Notes under the pieces: model-generated
The model's input: only the letters and a program-made list of their open reading frames with translations
The model's database searches: none
What the model was told of the DNA's origin: nothing
IMG/VR virus record: IMGVR_UViG_3300010354_009115
Span: 1-22,859 of that record
DNA length: 22,859 nt
Reading direction: 5' to 3' (one strand)
From: a virus
Part shown: in pieces, positions 4,288 to 16,617 of the stretch
How the letters are laid out: each line of letters opens with the position of its first letter
Numbering within the stretch: the first letter of the stretch is position 1
Made by a program: the position numbers and the translations under genes

Positions 4288-4749
4288 ATGAAAGCATCAA
4301 CAGCTTTCGTTATGCTTTTCGTTATGTCTTCATCCGTTAATTCAGCTGAAATGACACATCAATTCCTGTCACCATCTTTTAATGGAGCAGGATACACTAG
4401 CCACGTTTTATCCATATACAATATGGAATTGAGTAGAAAACTGGCTATCGAAGCACAAAGAAAAGCTGATTTATTAAAAGCAGAACAAGATGCCGCCAAT
4501 ACCCCATTGGCTAGGTTTCTTGCAAATTTAGAGTCTCGCGTGTTTAATGAACTCGCAAGACAGATGGTAGATAGAATGTTCTCTGGTGACGGTGAAGCAA
4601 ATCAGAGAGGTTCATTTACATTAGGTGGAAATACCATCGACTGGTATAGAGATGGCACAGAAGTCGTTCTTAATGTTACTGATGTTAATGGAACACTAAC
4701 AACAATCAGAGTACCATTAGGAGATTTCGGATGGATTCCACCAACCTAA
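4288..4749 (+). CDS. csgF: CsgF-like curli secretion accessory protein, 153 aa
   Basis: CsgF is exported to the cell surface and binds the CsgG pore, its N-terminal peptide forming a second constriction and its body anchoring the curli nucleator. The signal peptide MKASTAFVMLFVMSSSVNSA probably ends at residue 20, so the mature protein starts EMTHQFLSPSFNG. This matches the pore-binding N-terminus of CsgF (M-T-F/Y-Q-F-x-N/S-P-x-F-x-G). The C-terminal domain, TIDWYRDGTEVVLNVTDVNG and TLTTIRV, matches the CsgF beta domain (I-x-I-x-R-x-G-x-x-x-L-x-V-T-D). The middle has a Lys/Ala-rich helix. It is somewhat longer than the 138-residue E. coli protein. It overlaps csgG by 19 bases. Confidence 0.85.
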   Translation: MKASTAFVMLFVMSSSVNSAEMTHQFLSPSFNGAGYTSHVLSIYNMELSRKLAIEAQRKADLLKAEQDAANTPLARFLANLESRVFNELARQMVDRMFSGDGEANQRGSFTLGGNTIDWYRDGTEVVLNVTDVNGTLTTIRVPLGDFGWIPPT

Positions 4750-5537
4750 AAGCAGTTACATTATTAATCTCTGCTCTTGCTCTTGGTGGATGTGCCACTG
4801 CAGCTGGCACAAAAGCAATACCATATCAAGATGCAACAGTAACAACACCAACATTCTATAAGAAACAAGCGGTCCCCCAACCAGGTGGTCCGCCAATTGC
4901 CGTTGCAGTCTATAGATTTAATGATCAGACTGGGCAAAGAAAAGCATCACAGAATGTAGCAGTATTAAGTTCTGCTGTAACTCAAGGTGCAGACAATTAC
5001 CTGATCCGCTCTCTACAAGAAATCGGTGGCGGTAAATGGTTCAAAGTCATCGAACGTGGTAATCTAGATCATCTTATCAAAGAACGTCAAATCATTCGTC
5101 AAATGCGTGAACAATATGAAGGTAAGGATGCAAAACCATTACCACCAATGCTATTTGCTGGTGTTCTTCTTGAAGGTGGTATTATAGGTTACGACTCAAA
5201 TGTGAAAACTGGCGGTGCTGGCGCAAGAGTGTTAGGCATTGGAGCATCAACTCAATACAGCATTGATGAAATCGTAGTATCTCTCCGTGCAGTGTCAGTC
5301 ACCACAGGAGAAGTATTAGTATCTGTTACAACAACCAAAACGGTATATTCATTTAGAGATAATGCAGGTATGTTGAAGTTTGTCGATGCTGGAACAAGAG
5401 CATTAGAAGCAGAACTTGGCGCTGCCTCTAACGAAAGTATGAATAAAGCAGTTCAACTAGGTGTTCACGCTGCTGTGTTAGAACTAATCAAAGAAGGCGC
5501 AAGAAAGAAACACTGGAAAATTAAAGGAGCAAAATAA
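4731..5537 (+). CDS. csgG: CsgG-like outer-membrane secretion lipoprotein, 268 aa
   Basis: CsgG is a nonameric outer-membrane lipoprotein channel that exports unfolded curli subunits. The lipobox LALGGC gives a lipidated Cys21. The family core is plain: PIAVAVYRFNDQTGQ, GGKWFKVIERGNLDHLIKER with QIIRQ after it, GGIIGYDSN, GGAGARVLGIG, and the beta strands IDEIVVSLRAVSVTTGEVL with SVTTTKTVYS. The length is near that of E. coli CsgG. In the pore-constriction region (KASQNVAVLSSAV) I do not see the aromatic pair Tyr51/Phe56 of the E. coli loop, so the pore may be gated differently. AGGAG lies nine bases before ATG 4731. The stop is TAATG with the curlin gene. Confidence 0.95.
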   Translation: MDSTNLKAVTLLISALALGGCATAAGTKAIPYQDATVTTPTFYKKQAVPQPGGPPIAVAVYRFNDQTGQRKASQNVAVLSSAVTQGADNYLIRSLQEIGGGKWFKVIERGNLDHLIKERQIIRQMREQYEGKDAKPLPPMLFAGVLLEGGIIGYDSNVKTGGAGARVLGIGASTQYSIDEIVVSLRAVSVTTGEVLVSVTTTKTVYSFRDNAGMLKFVDAGTRALEAELGAASNESMNKAVQLGVHAAVLELIKEGARKKHWKIKGAK

Positions 5538-6205
5538 TGCGTAAATTTACAGCTTTCGTCATGTTCTTGATGTTGGCTGTTACTTCCCATGCATTTGCAC
5601 AAAATAAAGTTTATATTGAGCAGGCAGGTAACTCGAATTCAATAGATATCACACAAGTAGGAAACGGAAACAGAGTCGGTGATGCAAACTCAATTGCACT
5701 AATCACGGGTAATGGTAACTCAGTAACAACTTCACAGACTGGTAGTTCAAACGTAATTGACTATAACATAACTGGTAATAACAACACTGTAACAAAAACT
5801 ATTGTCGGTGACGGTAACACAAATACAACCACACTCGGTGATGGAACAACTGCTGCCACTAATGTTACAACAACAGCAACAGTTACAGGTGATGATAATA
5901 ACATAACACAAACTATCAAAGGTAATCTAATCACTTCTACCATTGATATTCAAGGCAACACTAACTCAATTACTCAAACAATAACAACAAGCAACAGCAA
6001 CAGTAACATTAGCATTCTTGGTGATCTAAACACCATCACCTCAACAATGTCTGGTTCTTCTGCTGGAGGCGGTCATCAATTGACTATGGATATTACAGGT
6101 TCGAGCAATCAATATACTATTGCTCAGACTGGTACAGTTGATACAATCGTAAGTGTTACAACAAATGGTTCTTCAAACGTAGTAAACATAAACTCAGGAA
6201 ACTAA
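5537..6205 (+). CDS. Curlin-repeat secreted amyloid protein, 222 aa
   Basis: Probable main fibre subunit or nucleator (CsgA/CsgB type). A signal peptide MRKFTAFVMFLMLAVTSHAFA precedes the mature QNKVYIEQAGNSNSIDITQVG. The rest is a series of about eight imperfect strand-loop-strand units of about 20-25 residues, rich in Asn, Thr, Ser and Gly, such as ITGNGNSVTTSQTGSSN, ITGNNNTVTKTIVGDGN and VTGDDNNITQTIKGN. These follow the curlin pattern of alternating hydrophobic and polar strands with G-x-x-N and Q positions. Only the first units keep the strict Q-x-G-x-x-N spacing. There are no cysteines. It immediately follows the pore gene, so it is most likely the pore's substrate. Confidence 0.85.
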   Translation: MRKFTAFVMFLMLAVTSHAFAQNKVYIEQAGNSNSIDITQVGNGNRVGDANSIALITGNGNSVTTSQTGSSNVIDYNITGNNNTVTKTIVGDGNTNTTTLGDGTTAATNVTTTATVTGDDNNITQTIKGNLITSTIDIQGNTNSITQTITTSNSNSNISILGDLNTITSTMSGSSAGGGHQLTMDITGSSNQYTIAQTGTVDTIVSVTTNGSSNVVNINSGN

Positions 6206-6206
6206 A

Positions 6207-7274
6207 ATGCTTAGAGTCCTGATGGCGTTATTGCTATTACCATCAGTAGCATATGCTGAAATTGGTTCGGTCGAATCATTCAAAGGTAATATCAGTATTG
6301 ACAGAAACAAAAATATATTCGATGGGAAAAAACAAAGTCCCATCGAATCTATGGATACTGTTATAACCAAATCTGAATCCGAAGCAAAACTCAAATTCAA
6401 AGATGATACGACTGTTAGAATAACACCTAACAGTCGTTTGCTTATTGACGACTTTGTTTATGACCCAAGTAATTCAGACGCAAGTAAAATATCACTCAAA
6501 GCAGCCATGGGAACTATTCGTTATGCGTCTGGACAAATAGCCAGAAACGATCCACAAAAAGTTGCTATCAGAACACCCACTGCTACTATATCCGTTCGTG
6601 GTACTGATTTTGCCATGTCTGTAGATGAAATCGGCAGAAGCCTCATTGTATTATTACCTAGCTGCGATGATGATCGCAAAATGTATAATTATGATGAAAG
6701 ACAAAATTGCGCTGTTGGTGAAATCAAAGTAGAAACACCAGAAGGATTTGTTGTTCTCAATCAACCATTCACCGCAACTACTGTTTATTCTGCTTCACAA
6801 ACACCAACACCTCCCGTTAGGATAAAACCAGACATTCGTATTATCAATAATAATATGTTTCTTGACACTCCCGATAGCATAACTGCAATGTTATCAAAAA
6901 TGAAAAAGGAAGAAGAAAAAAAGAAATTTCCTATAATTGAAATGACAGAAGAAGAAACAAAAGTGGCTGCTGATAATTCGAATAAGAAAATAACAGTAGA
7001 ACAAATAGCCCTAATCAATTCTGTTAAACTAAAAGTTTCACCAGACGCCATAAGACTTTCTGATTGTTCTGTGTTTAATGTGTGCTGGAATGAACGTGGA
7101 TTGAATCGATATCTAAAAGTGGATGGCAAATCAAAGAGCACAATCTATATTGGTATCAATGAAAGACAGGATAATGCAACTTATACTATTTCTCAGAATA
7201 GCGCAGAACCAGAAATCAAAATAACTGGAACTGGAAATCAAAACAGAATAACAATAAGGCAGCTTGATAGATGA
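6207..7274 (+). CDS. Periplasmic FecR-domain protein with curlin-like C-terminus, 355 aa
   Basis: The signal peptide MLRVLMALLLLPSVAYA is followed by a FecR domain (about residues 20-135): GSVESFKGNISI, DDTTVRITPNSRLLIDDF, LKAAMGTIRY, and RTPTATISVRGTDFAM, the last being the family's T-P-x-A-x-x-x-V-R-G-T-x-F signature. FecR domains sense or bind surface structures and signal to membrane partners. A Lys/Glu-rich helix follows (near residues 230-260), and the protein ends ITGTGNQNRITIRQLDR, which has the curlin G-x-x-N-x-x-x-x-x-Q spacing. Cysteine pairs (SCDD with QNCAV, and DCSVFNVC) suggest disulfides. FecR and CHASE2-cyclase genes are commonly neighbours in proteobacteria, so the two probably work together. 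Confidence 0.85.
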   Translation: MLRVLMALLLLPSVAYAEIGSVESFKGNISIDRNKNIFDGKKQSPIESMDTVITKSESEAKLKFKDDTTVRITPNSRLLIDDFVYDPSNSDASKISLKAAMGTIRYASGQIARNDPQKVAIRTPTATISVRGTDFAMSVDEIGRSLIVLLPSCDDDRKMYNYDERQNCAVGEIKVETPEGFVVLNQPFTATTVYSASQTPTPPVRIKPDIRIINNNMFLDTPDSITAMLSKMKKEEEKKKFPIIEMTEEETKVAADNSNKKITVEQIALINSVKLKVSPDAIRLSDCSVFNVCWNERGLNRYLKVDGKSKSTIYIGINERQDNATYTISQNSAEPEIKITGTGNQNRITIRQLDR

Positions 7275-8668
7275 GAAAAATTCTAGCACTGTTGTTCGCT
7301 TTGATCATAACTGTTGCATATGCGGAAGACCTTGGTGGAAATTTTGGGTTTGAAACTGGAACAATGTCTGGTTGGACTATCAGCAATGGTTCAGGAACAG
7401 TTAAATCTGCTACATCATGGAACTCAAATGGTACTGGTGTTAATGTAACAACAGGCATAACAAATTATAGTCCTGGTGGTGGTAACACATGGAATGTTAC
7501 TGGCTATGGTTCATACATGGCAAGTATTCAAGCTGGCTCTGGTTCTCCTACATTTGATGCCTCTACAACATCACTTGGTTTAACTGGTGCTGAGAATACT
7601 GCTATCAAAACATTTTTGACAAATCAGGGTGGTAATAGTAATCCAACCAATGCTTCATGGATGAAAAGAAACGTAACACTTGAAGCAGGTAAAACATACA
7701 CCATTGCTTGGCAATATATGTCAACTGATTATGTTCCATTCAATGATGGTTCAATGATTACACTAACACATTCTACAAATGCTGGAATTATACCTACTCT
7801 TAATAACGAACAGAAAAGATACGCTTTATTAGGCTTCACTAATCCTGGAACTGGTAACTATTCAACAGGCAGTTATGGTTCTACTGGTTGGCAATTGGCA
7901 GTATTCACTGTTCCAGAAAACGGTGAGTATACATTAGGATTTGCTTCGTTCAATCTTGGTGACACTGCTCTCAGTCCTATTCTATTAGTCGATCAAATAC
8001 AAGGTACGACTACACTGAATGGAACAAACTTCGGTCCTATCGCACCAAACGCTGGTTCTACAGCGCCGACAACACCAACGCAACCAACAACTCCTTCATA
8101 TGCTAGTTCAATAACAACACAACAACAGAACAGAGTTAACACTTGGTTGAATCGTGGTAATAATTCAAGCGGTGTTTATATCGAACAGATCGGAAACAAT
8201 AATAATATAACAGTTCTGCAAAAGAATCATAAAGATAACTATATCAAATATCAAGGTGCTGGAAATAATAGCACAGTGAATATAACTCAACAAACAGATA
8301 ATGGAACTGGTGCTGGACATTACTTAGAATTAACTAACACTGGTAACCAGAACACGATAAATCTTACACAAGATAATAACGGTGGTAAGAAAATGTTTGT
8401 TGATAATAATGGATCTGGGAATAACATTAATGTTACTCAGAAGAATGGTGGCAATCATTATCTTGATCTAGGATTAACTGGCAATGGTCATTCTGCTACT
8501 ATTGTGCAAGAAGGATCTGGTAACCATGCTGCTACGATACGACTAAATAATGCAGGTGGTTCTTCTACTTTGAATCTTAGTCAGTCTGGAACTACTAATC
8601 AAGTGTATTCTATAGAACAAACATGCACTAATCCAGCTGGGTGTAGTGTATCGGTGACTCAACAATGA
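7271..8668 (+). CDS. Secreted adhesin-like protein with C-terminal curlin repeats, 465 aa
   Basis: Three parts are visible. A signal peptide (MRKILALLFALIITVAYA) leads to an N-terminal domain of about 235 residues starting NFGFETGTMSGWTISNG, with strands such as VTLEAGKTYTIAWQYMSTD and VPENGEYTLGFASFNLGD; this looks like a beta-sandwich of the kind seen in carbohydrate-binding or surface proteins. A Thr/Pro linker (TAPTTPTQPTTPS) follows. From about residue 300 come seven or so curlin-like units (VYIEQIGNNNNITVLQ, GNNSTVNITQQ, GNQNTINLTQ, GNNINVTQ, GHSATIVQEGSGN). The last 20 residues hold two cysteines. The plan suggests a fibre tip or fibre-anchored adhesin that joins the amyloid through its repeats. 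It overlaps both neighbours through ATGA. Confidence 0.8.
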   Translation: MRKILALLFALIITVAYAEDLGGNFGFETGTMSGWTISNGSGTVKSATSWNSNGTGVNVTTGITNYSPGGGNTWNVTGYGSYMASIQAGSGSPTFDASTTSLGLTGAENTAIKTFLTNQGGNSNPTNASWMKRNVTLEAGKTYTIAWQYMSTDYVPFNDGSMITLTHSTNAGIIPTLNNEQKRYALLGFTNPGTGNYSTGSYGSTGWQLAVFTVPENGEYTLGFASFNLGDTALSPILLVDQIQGTTTLNGTNFGPIAPNAGSTAPTTPTQPTTPSYASSITTQQQNRVNTWLNRGNNSSGVYIEQIGNNNNITVLQKNHKDNYIKYQGAGNNSTVNITQQTDNGTGAGHYLELTNTGNQNTINLTQDNNGGKKMFVDNNGSGNNINVTQKNGGNHYLDLGLTGNGHSATIVQEGSGNHAATIRLNNAGGSSTLNLSQSGTTNQVYSIEQTCTNPAGCSVSVTQQ

Positions 8669-10710
8669 AAAAACTTATAGCATTTTTAATCCTTGGACTA
8701 TTTGTATTTTTGAAAGTGATGGATTATTCGCCTGTTGAGATATTGCGACTAAAGACGTTTGATTATTTGTTAACAAGCAAAACGCCAGTTAAGTCGGATA
8801 ATATTGTTATTGTTTCTATTGATGAAAAATCAATAAAAGAAAAAGGTCAGTGGCCATGGTCGCGCAAAGATATTGCGGAGACCATGGAAACATTGTTCAA
8901 GCAAGGCGCAGGAATAGTTGTGTTTCCTGTTCTTATGTCCGAAAAAGATAGAATGGGCACTGATGAAATCCTTTCTGAGTTTCTGAAGAAACAGAAGGGC
9001 GTTGTAATATCACAAACGCCAACGACTCAGAAAGGAAATGAAAATGCAGTTGTTCGTGGATATTCAGCTATTGGTGGTGACGTTCTACCTTATATTGCTA
9101 GGTGGAATAGTGTTATCGGTCCTTTACCCGATTTTGGTAAGAATGCTTCGGGCGTCGGGATGGCAGCGACCACTCCTGAAAGGGACGGTGTTGTACGCCG
9201 CATCCCTATGCTTGTGGCTATTGGCGAGTCTGTATTTCCCTCGATTGTTTTGGAATCTATACGTGTTGCTGTAGGATCACCATCATTTCAAATTAAATCT
9301 ACCGATGCGGGAATTGAAGCAGTCAGAGTTCGTGGATTCAAACCGCTAACAACCGATTCAAACGCTAGAATATGGCTAAACTGGAACTATCAATTCAATA
9401 AGATATCTTACACAGATATTGCAAAAACAGATATCAAAGGCAAGATAGCTATTCTTGGATTGGAAGTAGAAGGCGTTGGAGGAATTATTGCTACACCATT
9501 AGGATCGAAATGGTCTCATGAAATACAGGCATTAGGTATTGAATCTGCGATACAGGGTAACACACCAGTTCGCTTTGCATTCGCTAATCTTCTTGAAGCA
9601 ATCAGTATTGCTACTATTGGTATTGCGGTGATATTACTCACACCCATACTATTACCCATCGTAACATACTTATTATATCCCATATTTGTTGGATTGTCAA
9701 GTCTTTTTTCTTACTATATGTTCAAAGAATATGGACAGCTGTGGGATGTGAGTTTTCTGATTGTATCTTTCACCATCGTGTTCGGATACATGGTAATTCT
9801 AAAATTCCTCAAAGAACTATTCCTGAAACTACAAATCAAGAAACAGTTTGGTACATATCTTTCACCAGCACTGGTTGAGAAGCTACAGAAGAATCCTGAC
9901 CTGCTAAAACTAGGAGGAGAAACCCGTGAGCTGTCAATTATGTTTACGGATGTTCGTGGTTTTACTTCTATTTCTGAGCACTATGGCGATAATGTGCAAG
10001 GTCTTACACAAATAATGAATCGTTACATGACAGCTATGACGGAGAAGATTATCAAAAATGAAGGCACTTTGGATAAGTATATTGGAGATGCTCAAATGGC
10101 TTTCTGGAACGCTCCCTTAGATAATCCAAGACATGCCAGAGACGCGGTTAAAACAGCACTGGAGATGCTAGATGATTTGGACGTTTTCAATAATTCTATC
10201 TCGTCTGAAGGGGTTCCTCCTTTTGGTATGGGCATTGGGATCAATACTGGTAGTGTTGTCGTTGGCAACATGGGCTCTGCTCAAAGATTTGATTATACCT
10301 GTTTGGGCGATTCTGTCAACTTGGCTTCGAGGCTAGAAGGACAGTCAAAGAACTATGGAGTAAGATTGATTATAGGCGAAGAAACCGCTAAACAGATAAT
10401 GAACGATTTCCATGTCATAAAACTTGATGTTATAGCAGTCAAAGGAAAAAACATTGGAGTTGGAATATACACTATTATATCACCAAACGATATCATGCCC
10501 GTATACCAAAGCACACACAAAGATTTTCGAAAATTCTATGGAGAAGGTAATTGGGATCAAGCATTAGAATTCTTGAGAGTATTAAAGAGCGATCGTGTTT
10601 TCAATGGATTTCTCAAAGAATACTATATAATAATGGAGGAGCGGATTTTAGAATATAAAGCTAATCCACCTGAAAATTGGGATGGAACATATAAAGCAAC
10701 TAGCAAGTGA
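8665..10710 (+). CDS. CHASE2-domain class III adenylate cyclase, 681 aa
   Basis: Membrane receptor cyclase. The first 20 residues are a membrane anchor. Residues about 25-300 form a CHASE2 sensor, expected in the periplasm (RLKTFDYLL, IVIVSIDEKSIKEKGQWPW, GPLPDF, DGVVRRIP, KIAILGL). Three membrane segments lie at about 307-380, then a linker (FGTYLSPALVEKL) and the catalytic domain (about 420-605). Catalytic residues are present: metal-binding Asp429 (MFTDVRGFTSIS) and Asp475 (DKYIGDAQMAFW), Lys471 and Thr545 at the base-specifying positions, and Asn552 and Arg556 for the transition state (GDSVNLASRLEG). Lys/Thr fits ATP, so the product is probably cyclic AMP. The gene overlaps the adhesin gene by ATGA and ends the operon. 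Confidence 0.93.
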   Translation: MKKLIAFLILGLFVFLKVMDYSPVEILRLKTFDYLLTSKTPVKSDNIVIVSIDEKSIKEKGQWPWSRKDIAETMETLFKQGAGIVVFPVLMSEKDRMGTDEILSEFLKKQKGVVISQTPTTQKGNENAVVRGYSAIGGDVLPYIARWNSVIGPLPDFGKNASGVGMAATTPERDGVVRRIPMLVAIGESVFPSIVLESIRVAVGSPSFQIKSTDAGIEAVRVRGFKPLTTDSNARIWLNWNYQFNKISYTDIAKTDIKGKIAILGLEVEGVGGIIATPLGSKWSHEIQALGIESAIQGNTPVRFAFANLLEAISIATIGIAVILLTPILLPIVTYLLYPIFVGLSSLFSYYMFKEYGQLWDVSFLIVSFTIVFGYMVILKFLKELFLKLQIKKQFGTYLSPALVEKLQKNPDLLKLGGETRELSIMFTDVRGFTSISEHYGDNVQGLTQIMNRYMTAMTEKIIKNEGTLDKYIGDAQMAFWNAPLDNPRHARDAVKTALEMLDDLDVFNNSISSEGVPPFGMGIGINTGSVVVGNMGSAQRFDYTCLGDSVNLASRLEGQSKNYGVRLIIGEETAKQIMNDFHVIKLDVIAVKGKNIGVGIYTIISPNDIMPVYQSTHKDFRKFYGEGNWDQALEFLRVLKSDRVFNGFLKEYYIIMEERILEYKANPPENWDGTYKATSK

Positions 10711-13351: not shown

Positions 13352-14038
13352 ATGAGAATGCGATTTGACTATTCACCACATATTGATTTACCCAAAGCAA
13401 AACAAATCAATTCGCCCAGCGGGAGACGATACGAAACTCCCGCTGGTTCGCTTTATCCTTCCATAACAACTGTTCTTGGTTCTCAGCCAGAAAAGAAACG
13501 TTCGCTCGCAGAATGGCGCGCTCGCGTGGGCGAAGAAAAGGCACGAGCAATATCTACGCAAGCAGCACGTCGCGGGACTAATCTTCATAATCTCATGGAA
13601 AAGTATATCCTCGGCGATGACGTTGATCCTATAACAGTCCTGCCAGCAACTATCGCGCATTTCAAACCAGTAAGAAAATGTGTTGACAAAAACCTCCAGC
13701 TGGTATATACTACAGAAACTTCGATGTATTCTGATCTACTACGAATTGCAGGAACTGCAGACTTGATCTGTGAATGGGACGGCGAAGTTACAGTGGTGGA
13801 TTTCAAGACTTCGCGAACTATGAAAACTCGTGAAATGATTCACGACTACTTTCTTCAGGCAACCGCATACACGATTATGTTCGAGGAACACACTGGAATC
13901 GAAACCTATAATATCGCTATCCTAATGGTTACGGATGAGGGAGAGTTTCAGGAGTTCCGTGGGCATCGAAATGATTATGTTGCGGATTTGCTGAATGTTC
14001 GTAATGATTTCGAAAAAAGAGTCTTGACAAACGCCTAG
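13352..14038 (+). CDS. RecB-like PD-(D/E)XK exonuclease, 228 aa
   Basis: The nuclease core is clear: His79 in RRGTNLHNLME, Asp137 in AGTADLI, and Asp150/Lys152 in VVDFKTSR, with the supporting helix YFLQATAYTIMFEE. This is the plan of the Cas4/RecB-family phage exonucleases related to MGME1, which process DNA ends in replication and recombination. No Shine-Dalgarno is seen before ATG 13352 or ATG 13358, so the start is uncertain by two codons. Its last codons contain the -35 box of the tmRNA promoter. Confidence 0.85.
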   Translation: MRMRFDYSPHIDLPKAKQINSPSGRRYETPAGSLYPSITTVLGSQPEKKRSLAEWRARVGEEKARAISTQAARRGTNLHNLMEKYILGDDVDPITVLPATIAHFKPVRKCVDKNLQLVYTTETSMYSDLLRIAGTADLICEWDGEVTVVDFKTSRTMKTREMIHDYFLQATAYTIMFEEHTGIETYNIAILMVTDEGEFQEFRGHRNDYVADLLNVRNDFEKRVLTNA

Positions 14039-14052
14039 TATTGATATAGAAT
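14024..14052 (+). promoter_or_regulatory. Promoter of the tmRNA gene
   Basis: TTGACA (14024-14029), 17 bases, TAGAAT (14047-14052). The sequence CTTGACAAACG around the -35 box is shared with the gp32 promoter at 18502. AATAAATACTT (14050-14060) overlaps the -10 and differs by one base from the late consensus in front of csgF, so the RNA may be made both early and late. Confidence 0.7.
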
Positions 14053-14058
14053 AAATAC

Positions 14059-14422
14059 TTGGTTATCGTTGAAGTTGACGATAGACGGATCGGACGTGGG
14101 GGCAGTACCCGCCCAGTCCACCATAAGTACAATAAGCATCCCTCAAGCAATCGTTTAGGTCGAGGGACGAACTAAAGGATGAGCTTCTTATTGTACTTTT
14201 GATGGGGGCGAAACTAGGATCGACGGACGTTGATGCGGAGATGGAGATAACGGGATGACCGCCTAATAGGTCAAAAACTATAGGTGCCAACGATAATGTT
14301 GCTCCTCGTTACGCTCTAGCAGCCTAACATGAGTTTTCGGTGGGTTTGACTTGGAAACAGAATAAACCCACCAACTAATGCGCCCGAGGGGAGGCGTGCG
14401 CTAAACAAAATTTCCCCTCATC
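14059..14422 (+). ncRNA. ssrA: Circularly permuted (two-piece type) tmRNA
   Basis: tmRNA rescues stalled ribosomes and tags their products. The permuted order is clear: an acceptor part ending CCACCA (14118-14123), a linker (14124-14203) closed by the stem AGTACAATAAG/CTTATTGTACT, then the usual tmRNA 5' end, GGGGGCGAAACTAGG from 14204 followed by ATCGACGG. The tag frame starts at GCC 14286 and encodes ANDNVAPRYALAA with stop TAA at 14325-14327. Downstream are a 9-bp stem (14339-14347 with 14364-14372) and an H-type pseudoknot (GCGC 14380-14383 with 14398-14401; GAGGGGA 14386-14392 with TCCCCTC 14413-14419). ANDN...LAA is the alphaproteobacterial tag pattern. Exact processed ends are not visible. 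Confidence 0.92.
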
Positions 14423-14437
14423 TATTCGGAGGTCATC

Positions 14438-14815
14438 ATGAAAACAATAGTCTTGACACTGGCTCTATTGTGCGGTATGATTACTTCATCGATTGCTCAT
14501 GAATGGTGGGGCAATGGAACTGAAGTCGATCCCAAAACAAAAATGAATTGTTGTGGTAAATCTGACTGTAAATTCATAGATGAAAAAACTCTTATCCGTA
14601 GAGTTGGACCACAAGGAATATATCTAAAGTTTCCTAATCCAATGACTGAAGAAGAGTGGAATAAAACTTTTTCCAGTTCAACAAAAAGACCAGCATTCAT
14701 TGAATCTATCATTCCTCATGTAAGAGTTCAACCTTCACCAGATGGTAAATATTGGGCATGTATAAATTCATGGGGTGATATATTATGTTATTTTGAACCA
14801 CATAATGGAGCGTGA
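14438..14815 (+). CDS. Secreted Cys-rich protein, 125 aa
   Basis: A GGAGG five bases before ATG 14438 marks the start. The signal peptide MKTIVLTLALLCGMITSSIA precedes the mature HEWWGNG. The conserved elements are MNCCGKSDCKFID near the N-terminus and RVQPSPDGKYWACINSWGD followed by ILCYFEP at the end. Five cysteines remain in the mature protein. This pattern (C-C-x-x-x-D-C, then R-V-x-P-D-G-x-x-x-A-C-I, then L-C-F/Y-F) matches small exported proteins that I know from rhizobial genomes, where their role is unknown. In a phage it may act in the periplasm. It directly follows the tmRNA without a visible terminator. Confidence 0.7.
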   Translation: MKTIVLTLALLCGMITSSIAHEWWGNGTEVDPKTKMNCCGKSDCKFIDEKTLIRRVGPQGIYLKFPNPMTEEEWNKTFSSSTKRPAFIESIIPHVRVQPSPDGKYWACINSWGDILCYFEPHNGA

Positions 14816-15224: not shown

Positions 15225-16076
15225 ATGTCTTTTTACAATGATTGTGGTAATGATAAACCATTGAGTATTATCGCTGGTCCTTGCGTGTTTGAAGGAAAAT
15301 ACCATGCGATAGAAATGGCTGATCGTTTGCGAACTATAGTCCAAGATATTGGATTTGTGTTGGGACGATCAGTCAACTTCATATATAAGACGTCCTTCGA
15401 TAAGGCGAATCGAACATCTGCGGGAGGCTATAGAGGTGCGGGGTTCGATGAAGCGTTTTATGGAATGGACGCCGTCCGTGGATTAGGTATTCCTGTTCTT
15501 ACGGACGTTCATGACCCCTGGCAATGTGCGGCGGTAAATGCTGATATCATACAGATTCCCGCTTTCCTTTGCAGGCAGACTGATCTACTCGAGGCAGCAG
15601 CGCAGACTGGTAAACCAGTCAATGTCAAGAAAGGTCAGTTTCTTTCACCACAAGAAATGAAAAACGTGGTGGAAAAGTTGGAACATTTTGGTTGCAAGCA
15701 AATTATGCAAACTGAACGCGGAACAACATTTGGTTATAATAATCTAGTTGTTGATATGCGTTCACTTGATATTATGAAACGCAACCAATATCCTGTTATC
15801 ATGGACTGTACTCATGCAGTCCAACTTCCTGGAGGTCAAGGAACATCATCTGGCGGTCAACGTGAGTTCGTACAAACTCTTGCTCGTGCGGCAGTTGCTG
15901 TTGGCGTGGCAGGCGTTTTTATGGAAGTGCATAATGATCCTGATAATGCTCCGTGTGATGGACCCAATATGTTAGATCTTGACATGTTCGAAGATTTACT
16001 ATATGATTTGTTGAAGATTGATCGTGTGAGAAAGGAAATTGATCATGAAAGACGACTTCAAGGAAGACAGCAATAA
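15225..16076 (+). CDS. kdsA: KDO-8-phosphate synthase (KdsA), 283 aa
   Basis: KdsA joins phosphoenolpyruvate and arabinose-5-phosphate to give KDO-8-phosphate, the precursor of the lipopolysaccharide inner-core sugar. The protein is full length and holds the family motifs: IIAGPCVFEGK, FIYKTSFDKANRTS, LTDVHDPWQ, KKGQFLSPQEM, TERGTTFGYNNL, DCTHAVQLPGG and MEVHNDPDNAPCDGPN. The Cys of GPC stands where metal-dependent KdsA enzymes have their metal-binding cysteine (metal-independent ones have Asn), and the His and Glu/Asp partners are present. No KdsB or arabinose-5-phosphate isomerase is nearby, so it would boost the host pathway. Other members of the aldolase family (DAHP or NeuB type) fit less well. 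Confidence 0.9.
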   Translation: MSFYNDCGNDKPLSIIAGPCVFEGKYHAIEMADRLRTIVQDIGFVLGRSVNFIYKTSFDKANRTSAGGYRGAGFDEAFYGMDAVRGLGIPVLTDVHDPWQCAAVNADIIQIPAFLCRQTDLLEAAAQTGKPVNVKKGQFLSPQEMKNVVEKLEHFGCKQIMQTERGTTFGYNNLVVDMRSLDIMKRNQYPVIMDCTHAVQLPGGQGTSSGGQREFVQTLARAAVAVGVAGVFMEVHNDPDNAPCDGPNMLDLDMFEDLLYDLLKIDRVRKEIDHERRLQGRQQ

Positions 16077-16617
16077 AACATTTGCTCCTACACTAGAAGA
16101 AAAACACTACTATCTTTTCAATAAAGATTTTAATCATGATTCCTGTGGAGATGCTCTTGCCTTTATTCTAGAACGTAATCTCATGGATAAAGATCGCCCT
16201 AAGCAAATCAAAATGATTATTAATTCGTATGGTGGCGTTGTTGATGCGGCATTTGCTCTTATCGACACCATAAAGGGATCTCGCATTCCAGTATTTACAT
16301 ATGGTCTTGGTTGTATCGCAAGTTGCGGTCTCATGACGTTTATCGCTGGTCAGAAAGGCAAGCGATTTATTACTCGCAACACATCTATTCTTTCTCATCA
16401 GTTCTCTTGGGGTTCTTTTGGTAAAGAGCACGAACTCTTTGCTACTGTAAAAGAATTCACTAACACTCAACAACGCATTGTCGAACATTATAAGCGTTGT
16501 ACAGGAATGACTGAGAAAAATATCAAGAAGTATCTTCTTCCGCCCGAAGACGTATGGCTCACGGCAAAAGAAGCAGTTAAATATGGCATTGCAGATGAAA
16601 TAGTGGAGTTTTATTGA
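16045..16617 (+). CDS. ClpP-like serine protease, 190 aa
   Basis: ATG 16045, seven bases after AAAGGAAA, is preferred to the in-frame TTG upstream. The ClpP catalytic triad is intact: Ser93 in GCIASCGLMTFIAGQKGKRF, His118 in NTSILSHQ, and Asp169 in PEDVWLTAKEAVKYGIAD, which aligns with the Asp of the E. coli ClpP ERD motif. The substrate-binding MIINSYGG is also present. ClpP-like proteases are common in T4-like phages. It might take part in capsid maturation or act with a host Clp ATPase; no chaperone subunit is seen here. It overlaps kdsA by 32 bases. Confidence 0.85.
   Translation: MKDDFKEDSNKTFAPTLEEKHYYLFNKDFNHDSCGDALAFILERNLMDKDRPKQIKMIINSYGGVVDAAFALIDTIKGSRIPVFTYGLGCIASCGLMTFIAGQKGKRFITRNTSILSHQFSWGSFGKEHELFATVKEFTNTQQRIVEHYKRCTGMTEKNIKKYLLPPEDVWLTAKEAVKYGIADEIVEFY

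Follow-up and report, generated by a model that had tools for sequence, protein, structure and literature searches.

The window, i.e., the entire stretch of 22,859 nucleotides that was analyzed, comes from an IMG/VR virus record (IMGVR_UViG_3300010354_009115) and holds a real, alpha-type circularly permuted gene for tmRNA, the RNA that frees stalled ribosomes. By descent, this gene is a confirmed member of a phage family. The locus is composed of the following features:

14024-14052, plus strand: sigma-70-type promoter, TTGACA (from 14024)-N17-TAGAAT (ending at 14052), 11/12 matches in a consensus scan.
14061-14123, plus strand: acceptor piece of the permuted tmRNA (5′ linker strand, T-arm, acceptor 3′ strand, encoded CCA), from the RF04321 and RF01849 alignments, with a predicted exact 5′ end.
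14096-14112, plus strand: T-arm GUGGG-GGCAGUA-CCCGC, with the 5′ strand like that of the IMG/VR contig 3300010354_002996 (L004) and the loop and 3′ strand like those of the CCAGUCC class.
14113-14119, plus strand: acceptor 3′ strand CCAGUCC, read from the sequence, with U70 of G3-U70 kept and followed by ACCA at 14120-14123.
14124-14203, plus strand: intervening segment (IVS) of 80 nt, predicted by folding to form a 12-bp outer helix (14125-14136/14187-14198) around a structured inner part.
14204-14210, plus strand: acceptor 5′ strand GGGGGCG, which in sequence comparison fits CGCCUCC and not CCAGUCC.
14204-14373, plus strand: tmRNA coding piece (D-loop region, linker strand, tag, 3′ hairpin), from the covariance match and relatives, 3′ end approximate.
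14286-14327, plus strand: tag reading frame ANDNVAPRYALAA plus stop, from the sequence, RF04321/RF01849 and relatives.
14339-14373, plus strand: conserved 3′ hairpin with the loop GACUUGGAAACAGAA, from the alpha_tmRNA alignment.

The initial annotation had described a phage-borne, circularly permuted tmRNA that is complete in outline, and Rfam covariance searches bear this out. The model RF04321 (tmRNA_permuted) matches at 14061-14327 with 92.3 bits (cut-off 47, E 5.6e-17). The search with alpha_tmRNA (RF01849), which had been proposed as a check, yielded a match at 14020-14372 with 85.5 bits (cut-off 50, E 3.4e-22), and the alignment spans model positions 1-355, including the alpha-type coding piece and the 3′ hairpin. 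The order is permuted with the acceptor piece and its encoded CCA end preceding the IVS and the coding piece, and G14206 faces U14117 in the standard register, by which the G3-U70 alanine determinant is kept. The tag announced earlier is read in frame from an alanine start to a degradation signal and a stop at the end (GCC AAC GAT AAT GTT GCT CCT CGT TAC GCT CTA GCA GCC TAA). The gene's own promoter was recovered as well; it ends a few bases upstream of the expected tmRNA 5′ end, and TTGACA-N16-18-TAnnnT is present at equal distance in most close relatives (L004-L012, L014, L016). Moreover, the tmRNA stretch as a whole folds better than its shuffles (z -3.95). ARAGORN made no call for a tmRNA gene on the window; it does call the tmRNA of the near twin L004, with an identical tag.

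What had been missed is that the acceptor stem of the window copy is mismatched, so that function is not to be assumed. In the standard register, GGGGGCG faces CCAGUCC as G-C, G-C, G-U, G/G, G/A, C/C and G-C, i.e., with three central mismatches in the seven-base stem, and no more than four consecutive pairs form in the best alternative register (GGGC with GUCC). This lowers the claim of a working tmRNA, though the gene is homologous by descent. The computed energy of the acceptor duplex is -4.6 kcal/mol for the window compared to -11.9 for L004 and -10.7 for L016, and all computed acceptors except that of the window range from -10.4 to -11.9 kcal/mol. The acceptor strands are matched in 124 of 125 distinct phage tmRNA cassettes, the window being the only mixed pair, where the loci were mostly found by a search for the 3′ strand that left the 5′ strand free except for the GGG start in the last scan, and where three cassettes reading GGGGGGC and one reading GGGGGGT were taken to be these strands preceded by an additional G. 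The classes observed are CGCCUCC with GGGGGCG, CCAGUCC with GGGCUGG and, in the phage Mosig, CACCUCC with GGGGGUG; every other compared phage tmRNA having CCAGUCC pairs it with GGGCUGG. The remainder of the window RNA is intact compared to L004, with 96% identity in the D/linker segment and 99% in the tag module.

As only one acceptor strand seems to have been exchanged, charging or processing of the window allele is probably impaired, a judgment drawn from pairing with G1-C72, G2-C71 and G3-U70 remaining; the copy scores above the Rfam cut-off despite its mismatches. That the allele is fully functional is unlikely. It might use a four-pair acceptor stem GGGC/GUCC with the mature 5′ end at 14206, or the mismatches might be tolerated because AlaRS recognizes chiefly G3-U70 and the stem end. 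The presence of G3-U70 in both registers, the uninterrupted run of four pairs once the register is shifted and the lack of decay in the tag module and linker helices would suit this explanation, but the retention of all seven pairs in all but one of the cassettes and the existence of two stem classes changed on both strands argue that pairing is strongly selected. The mixed acceptor stem represents a natural mutant, which would test how much acceptor pairing a tmRNA needs.

The window copy looks like a mosaic. Upstream and in the T-stem 5′ strand it resembles L004, from the T-loop to CCACCAUAA the CCAGUCC class and in the IVS core the contig L027, before it returns to the GGGGGCG class, with a one-base insertion (GAAACUAGG for GAAAUAGG) just downstream of the downstream joint. 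It is collinear with L004 on both sides (85-91% identity), and the alignment near the tmRNA is interrupted solely at 14124-14198, i.e., in the IVS, and by an insertion of ~590 bases in L004 after the tmRNA. We consider it likely that this is an alpha-type permuted tmRNA related to that of the phage Melnitz, of which the window allele is a recombinant with a half-exchanged, probably impaired acceptor stem. According to this model, which is the most parsimonious, the IVS and the flanking acceptor strands are exchanged between phages, and in the window a change of only one strand would have left a recombination scar. The T-loop, the acceptor 3′ strand and the start of the IVS would derive from the CCAGUCC/GGGCUGG class, the acceptor 5′ strand and the coding piece from the CGCCUCC/GGGGGCG class, and the joining of both classes across the stem would leave it half exchanged and poorly paired. 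A complete exchange is seen between L007 and L016, in which flanks of 93-96% identity enclose both acceptor strands and an IVS that were replaced together; L016 has an acceptor of the other class on both strands and a different IVS in a body almost the same as that of L007. Furthermore, the IVS identity is below 0.65, near the level of unrelated sequences in the measure used, in 18 of 40 pairs with flanks at least 93% identical, these pairs sharing members and not being independent.

Alternatively, the mixed acceptor might be an assembly artefact, in which two co-occurring phage variants were joined within the IVS region, the stem being unbroken in each of the actual phages. This is improbable even though the window is a metagenome contig, both breakpoints lie in sequence shared by the classes (~14 bases GGGGGCAGTACCC and ~7 bases TGATGGG) and every other copy is paired: assemblies usually work with words longer than these shared stretches, the collinearity with L004 holds on both sides, and the outer IVS helix is perfectly paired over the interval, which a random join within the IVS would not give. 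Relative to L027, both partners are changed in 4 of the 12 pairs of this helix, and the pairing holds in both contigs, suggesting that under the recombination model the hairpin uniting the two cut sites was kept and the acceptor stem was not. The window IVS was also considered as a mobile RNA occurring elsewhere, which was rejected: three further matches to its core lie in DNA that is unrelated and lacks the remaining element, and only L027 shares the element. As a separate observation, the module of tag and 3′ hairpin in L026 is 99% identical to that of the window (L023 and L026 were compared with 14273-14373), and the tRNA-like domain and the very short IVS of L023 and L026 look unrelated to it, so that tag modules seem to be mobile as well.

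The IVS is hypervariable across related phages. On balance, the data slightly favor the view that the IVS, discarded at maturation, is a cargo slot swapped as a cassette with the acceptor strands and often with small protein genes, one of them an HNH-like ORF, and that the window represents an exchange that changed one strand only. In 21/50 IVS of at least 100 nt, a Shine-Dalgarno-like sequence precedes an ORF whose length exceeds that obtained in 95% of shuffles. A small membrane-protein-like ORF of 38-44 codons (e.g., MKNPLVREVSKWMFKAYILWSICADITLLAGIIYLVFF), each with a Shine-Dalgarno sequence, is common to nine IVS (L135, L069, L129, L103, L063, L074, L081, L109, L090), and its nonsynonymous-to-synonymous ratio of 0.45, compared to 3.7 expected without selection, indicates strong purifying selection. 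A second ORF, M..WL...VVITRDYFxERxRKADAKIPKYLSG, is shared by four IVS (L002, which is Melnitz, L054, L087 and L116; a predicted peptide of the Melnitz IVS is MFKWLSKTRLVVITRDYFRERNRKADAKIPKYLSG) and shows a ratio of 0.62 compared to 3.6 expected without selection. In Melnitz and L054 it extends into the tmRNA coding piece, so that RNA processing would cut off its stop codon, and this ORF might then itself become a target of the tmRNA. Compared against the phage collection, the Melnitz IVS ORF has matches only within Melnitz SsrA features, and no CDS is annotated within the Melnitz ssrA. Moreover, the IVS of 489 nt located in L009 6660-7500 contains an ORF of 144 residues that matches an HNH endonuclease marginally, just under the Pfam cut-off, and the IVS of L114 and L130 contain 68-residue ORFs, that of L114 with a marginal DUF2061 match, also just under the Pfam cut-off. 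The window IVS has no ORF of at least 30 codons. Literature searches on genes in a tmRNA IVS retrieved no earlier report of protein genes there; the only contents they yielded were a tRNA-Ala for one permuted gene and, for a second one, a repeat (PMC11915505). As permuted tmRNAs of phages are known, the window gene alone adds one member. A discarded segment that evolves by replacement and often encodes proteins represents genes nested in an RNA gene and unseen by annotation pipelines, and the IVS of phage permuted tmRNA genes deserves its own study.

Processing, alanine charging, SmpB-aided rescue and tagging constitute the general tmRNA pathway. If this pathway holds for the window, the sigma-70 promoter of the tmRNA gene would drive synthesis of a single precursor. 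Cleavage at either side of the IVS hairpin would release an acceptor piece with the CCA end and a second piece coding for the tag. The two-piece tmRNA would then be charged with alanine and, together with host SmpB, rescue stalled ribosomes and add the tag ANDNVAPRYALAA. An action late in infection, as initially suggested, is unsupported, since the sole promoter found is sigma-70-like and the authors of the Melnitz study argued for early expression (PMC9004378). It is very unlikely that the phage RNA competes with host tmRNA or SmpB instead of tagging, for which the tag-less tmRNA of mycobacteriophage DS6A provides a precedent (mentioned in PMC11915505), as the conserved 13-codon tag with its stop is nearly unchanged in relatives and would not be needed by a pure competitor. 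Concerning the host, a degenerate pattern for ANDNVAPRYALAA had no exact match in the GTDB genomes searched, and the exact 22-mer of the CCAGUCC T-arm, searched for a bacterial source, was absent from them.

Several neighboring elements were observed in the window. Between the tmRNA and the Shine-Dalgarno sequence of the next gene, a possible H-type pseudoknot (14380-14419; GCGCC/GGCG with GAGGGGA/UUUCCCCUC) is found that has similar sequences in L004, L024 and L027 and no Rfam match. The next gene (14438-14815) encodes a 125-aa protein with a signal-peptide-like start and no Pfam match, which follows the tmRNA in other phages too and is 97% identical in L024. At 16039-16617, ~1.7 kb after the tmRNA whose tag ends in LAA, a phage ClpP-like protease is encoded (Pfam E 2.6e-32), the best relatives of which in isolated phages are ~52% identical. 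A partnership of tag and phage ClpP was considered; among the loci compared, many with short flanks, ClpP was present only in L004 and L136, so that no general partnership is shown. Further upstream, 4288-10710 harbors a curli-like gene run with CsgG (48% identical to that of L002), curlin-repeat-like proteins, a FecR-like protein and a phage-borne CHASE2 adenylate/guanylate cyclase, also found in Melnitz and HTVC008M.

The tmRNA had been called rare among phages, which is contradicted by a survey from 2022 reporting tmRNA in 402 of 18,146 phage genomes and two-piece forms among 53 of 133 distinct structures, as well as permuted ssrA in the Melnitz-type phage group (PMC9004378); moreover, the usual T-arm and acceptor were found as an exact pattern in at least 120 contigs in an IMG/VR scan. 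In 11 of the 11 nearest IMG/VR relatives, which were found via the nuclease gene, the tmRNA follows soon after a PD-(D/E)XK nuclease gene, and the cultivated phages Melnitz and Mosig have their permuted ssrA near the same gene with one or two small ORFs in between. The window phage is likely a T4-like myovirus related to the OM43 phage Melnitz. The ssrA of Melnitz, a phage of Methylophilales OM43 (MZ577097; PMC9004378), is likewise a permuted alpha-type tmRNA with its own promoter near this nuclease gene, and curli genes and a CHASE2 cyclase are found elsewhere in its genome. However, its acceptor stem is fully paired (GGGGGCG/CGCCUCC), its tag is ANDNYVPVDYALAA, its IVS has 142 nt and contains a small ORF, and its ssrA is followed by a glutamine riboswitch, for which the window gave no match at any E up to 5. 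The Pelagibacter (SAR11) phage Mosig (MT647606) also has a permuted tmRNA near this nuclease gene, but with the acceptor GGGGGUG/CACCUCC and the tag GEDNFALAA. Compared to Rfam RF01849 and RF04321, architecture and score agree, whereas the acceptor stem of the window breaks consensus pairs. Finally, L004 shares the tag, 85-91% DNA identity across most of the shared region and a tmRNA body 96-99% identical to that of the window, but differs in its fully paired acceptor, its unrelated IVS and the ~590 extra bases after its tmRNA.
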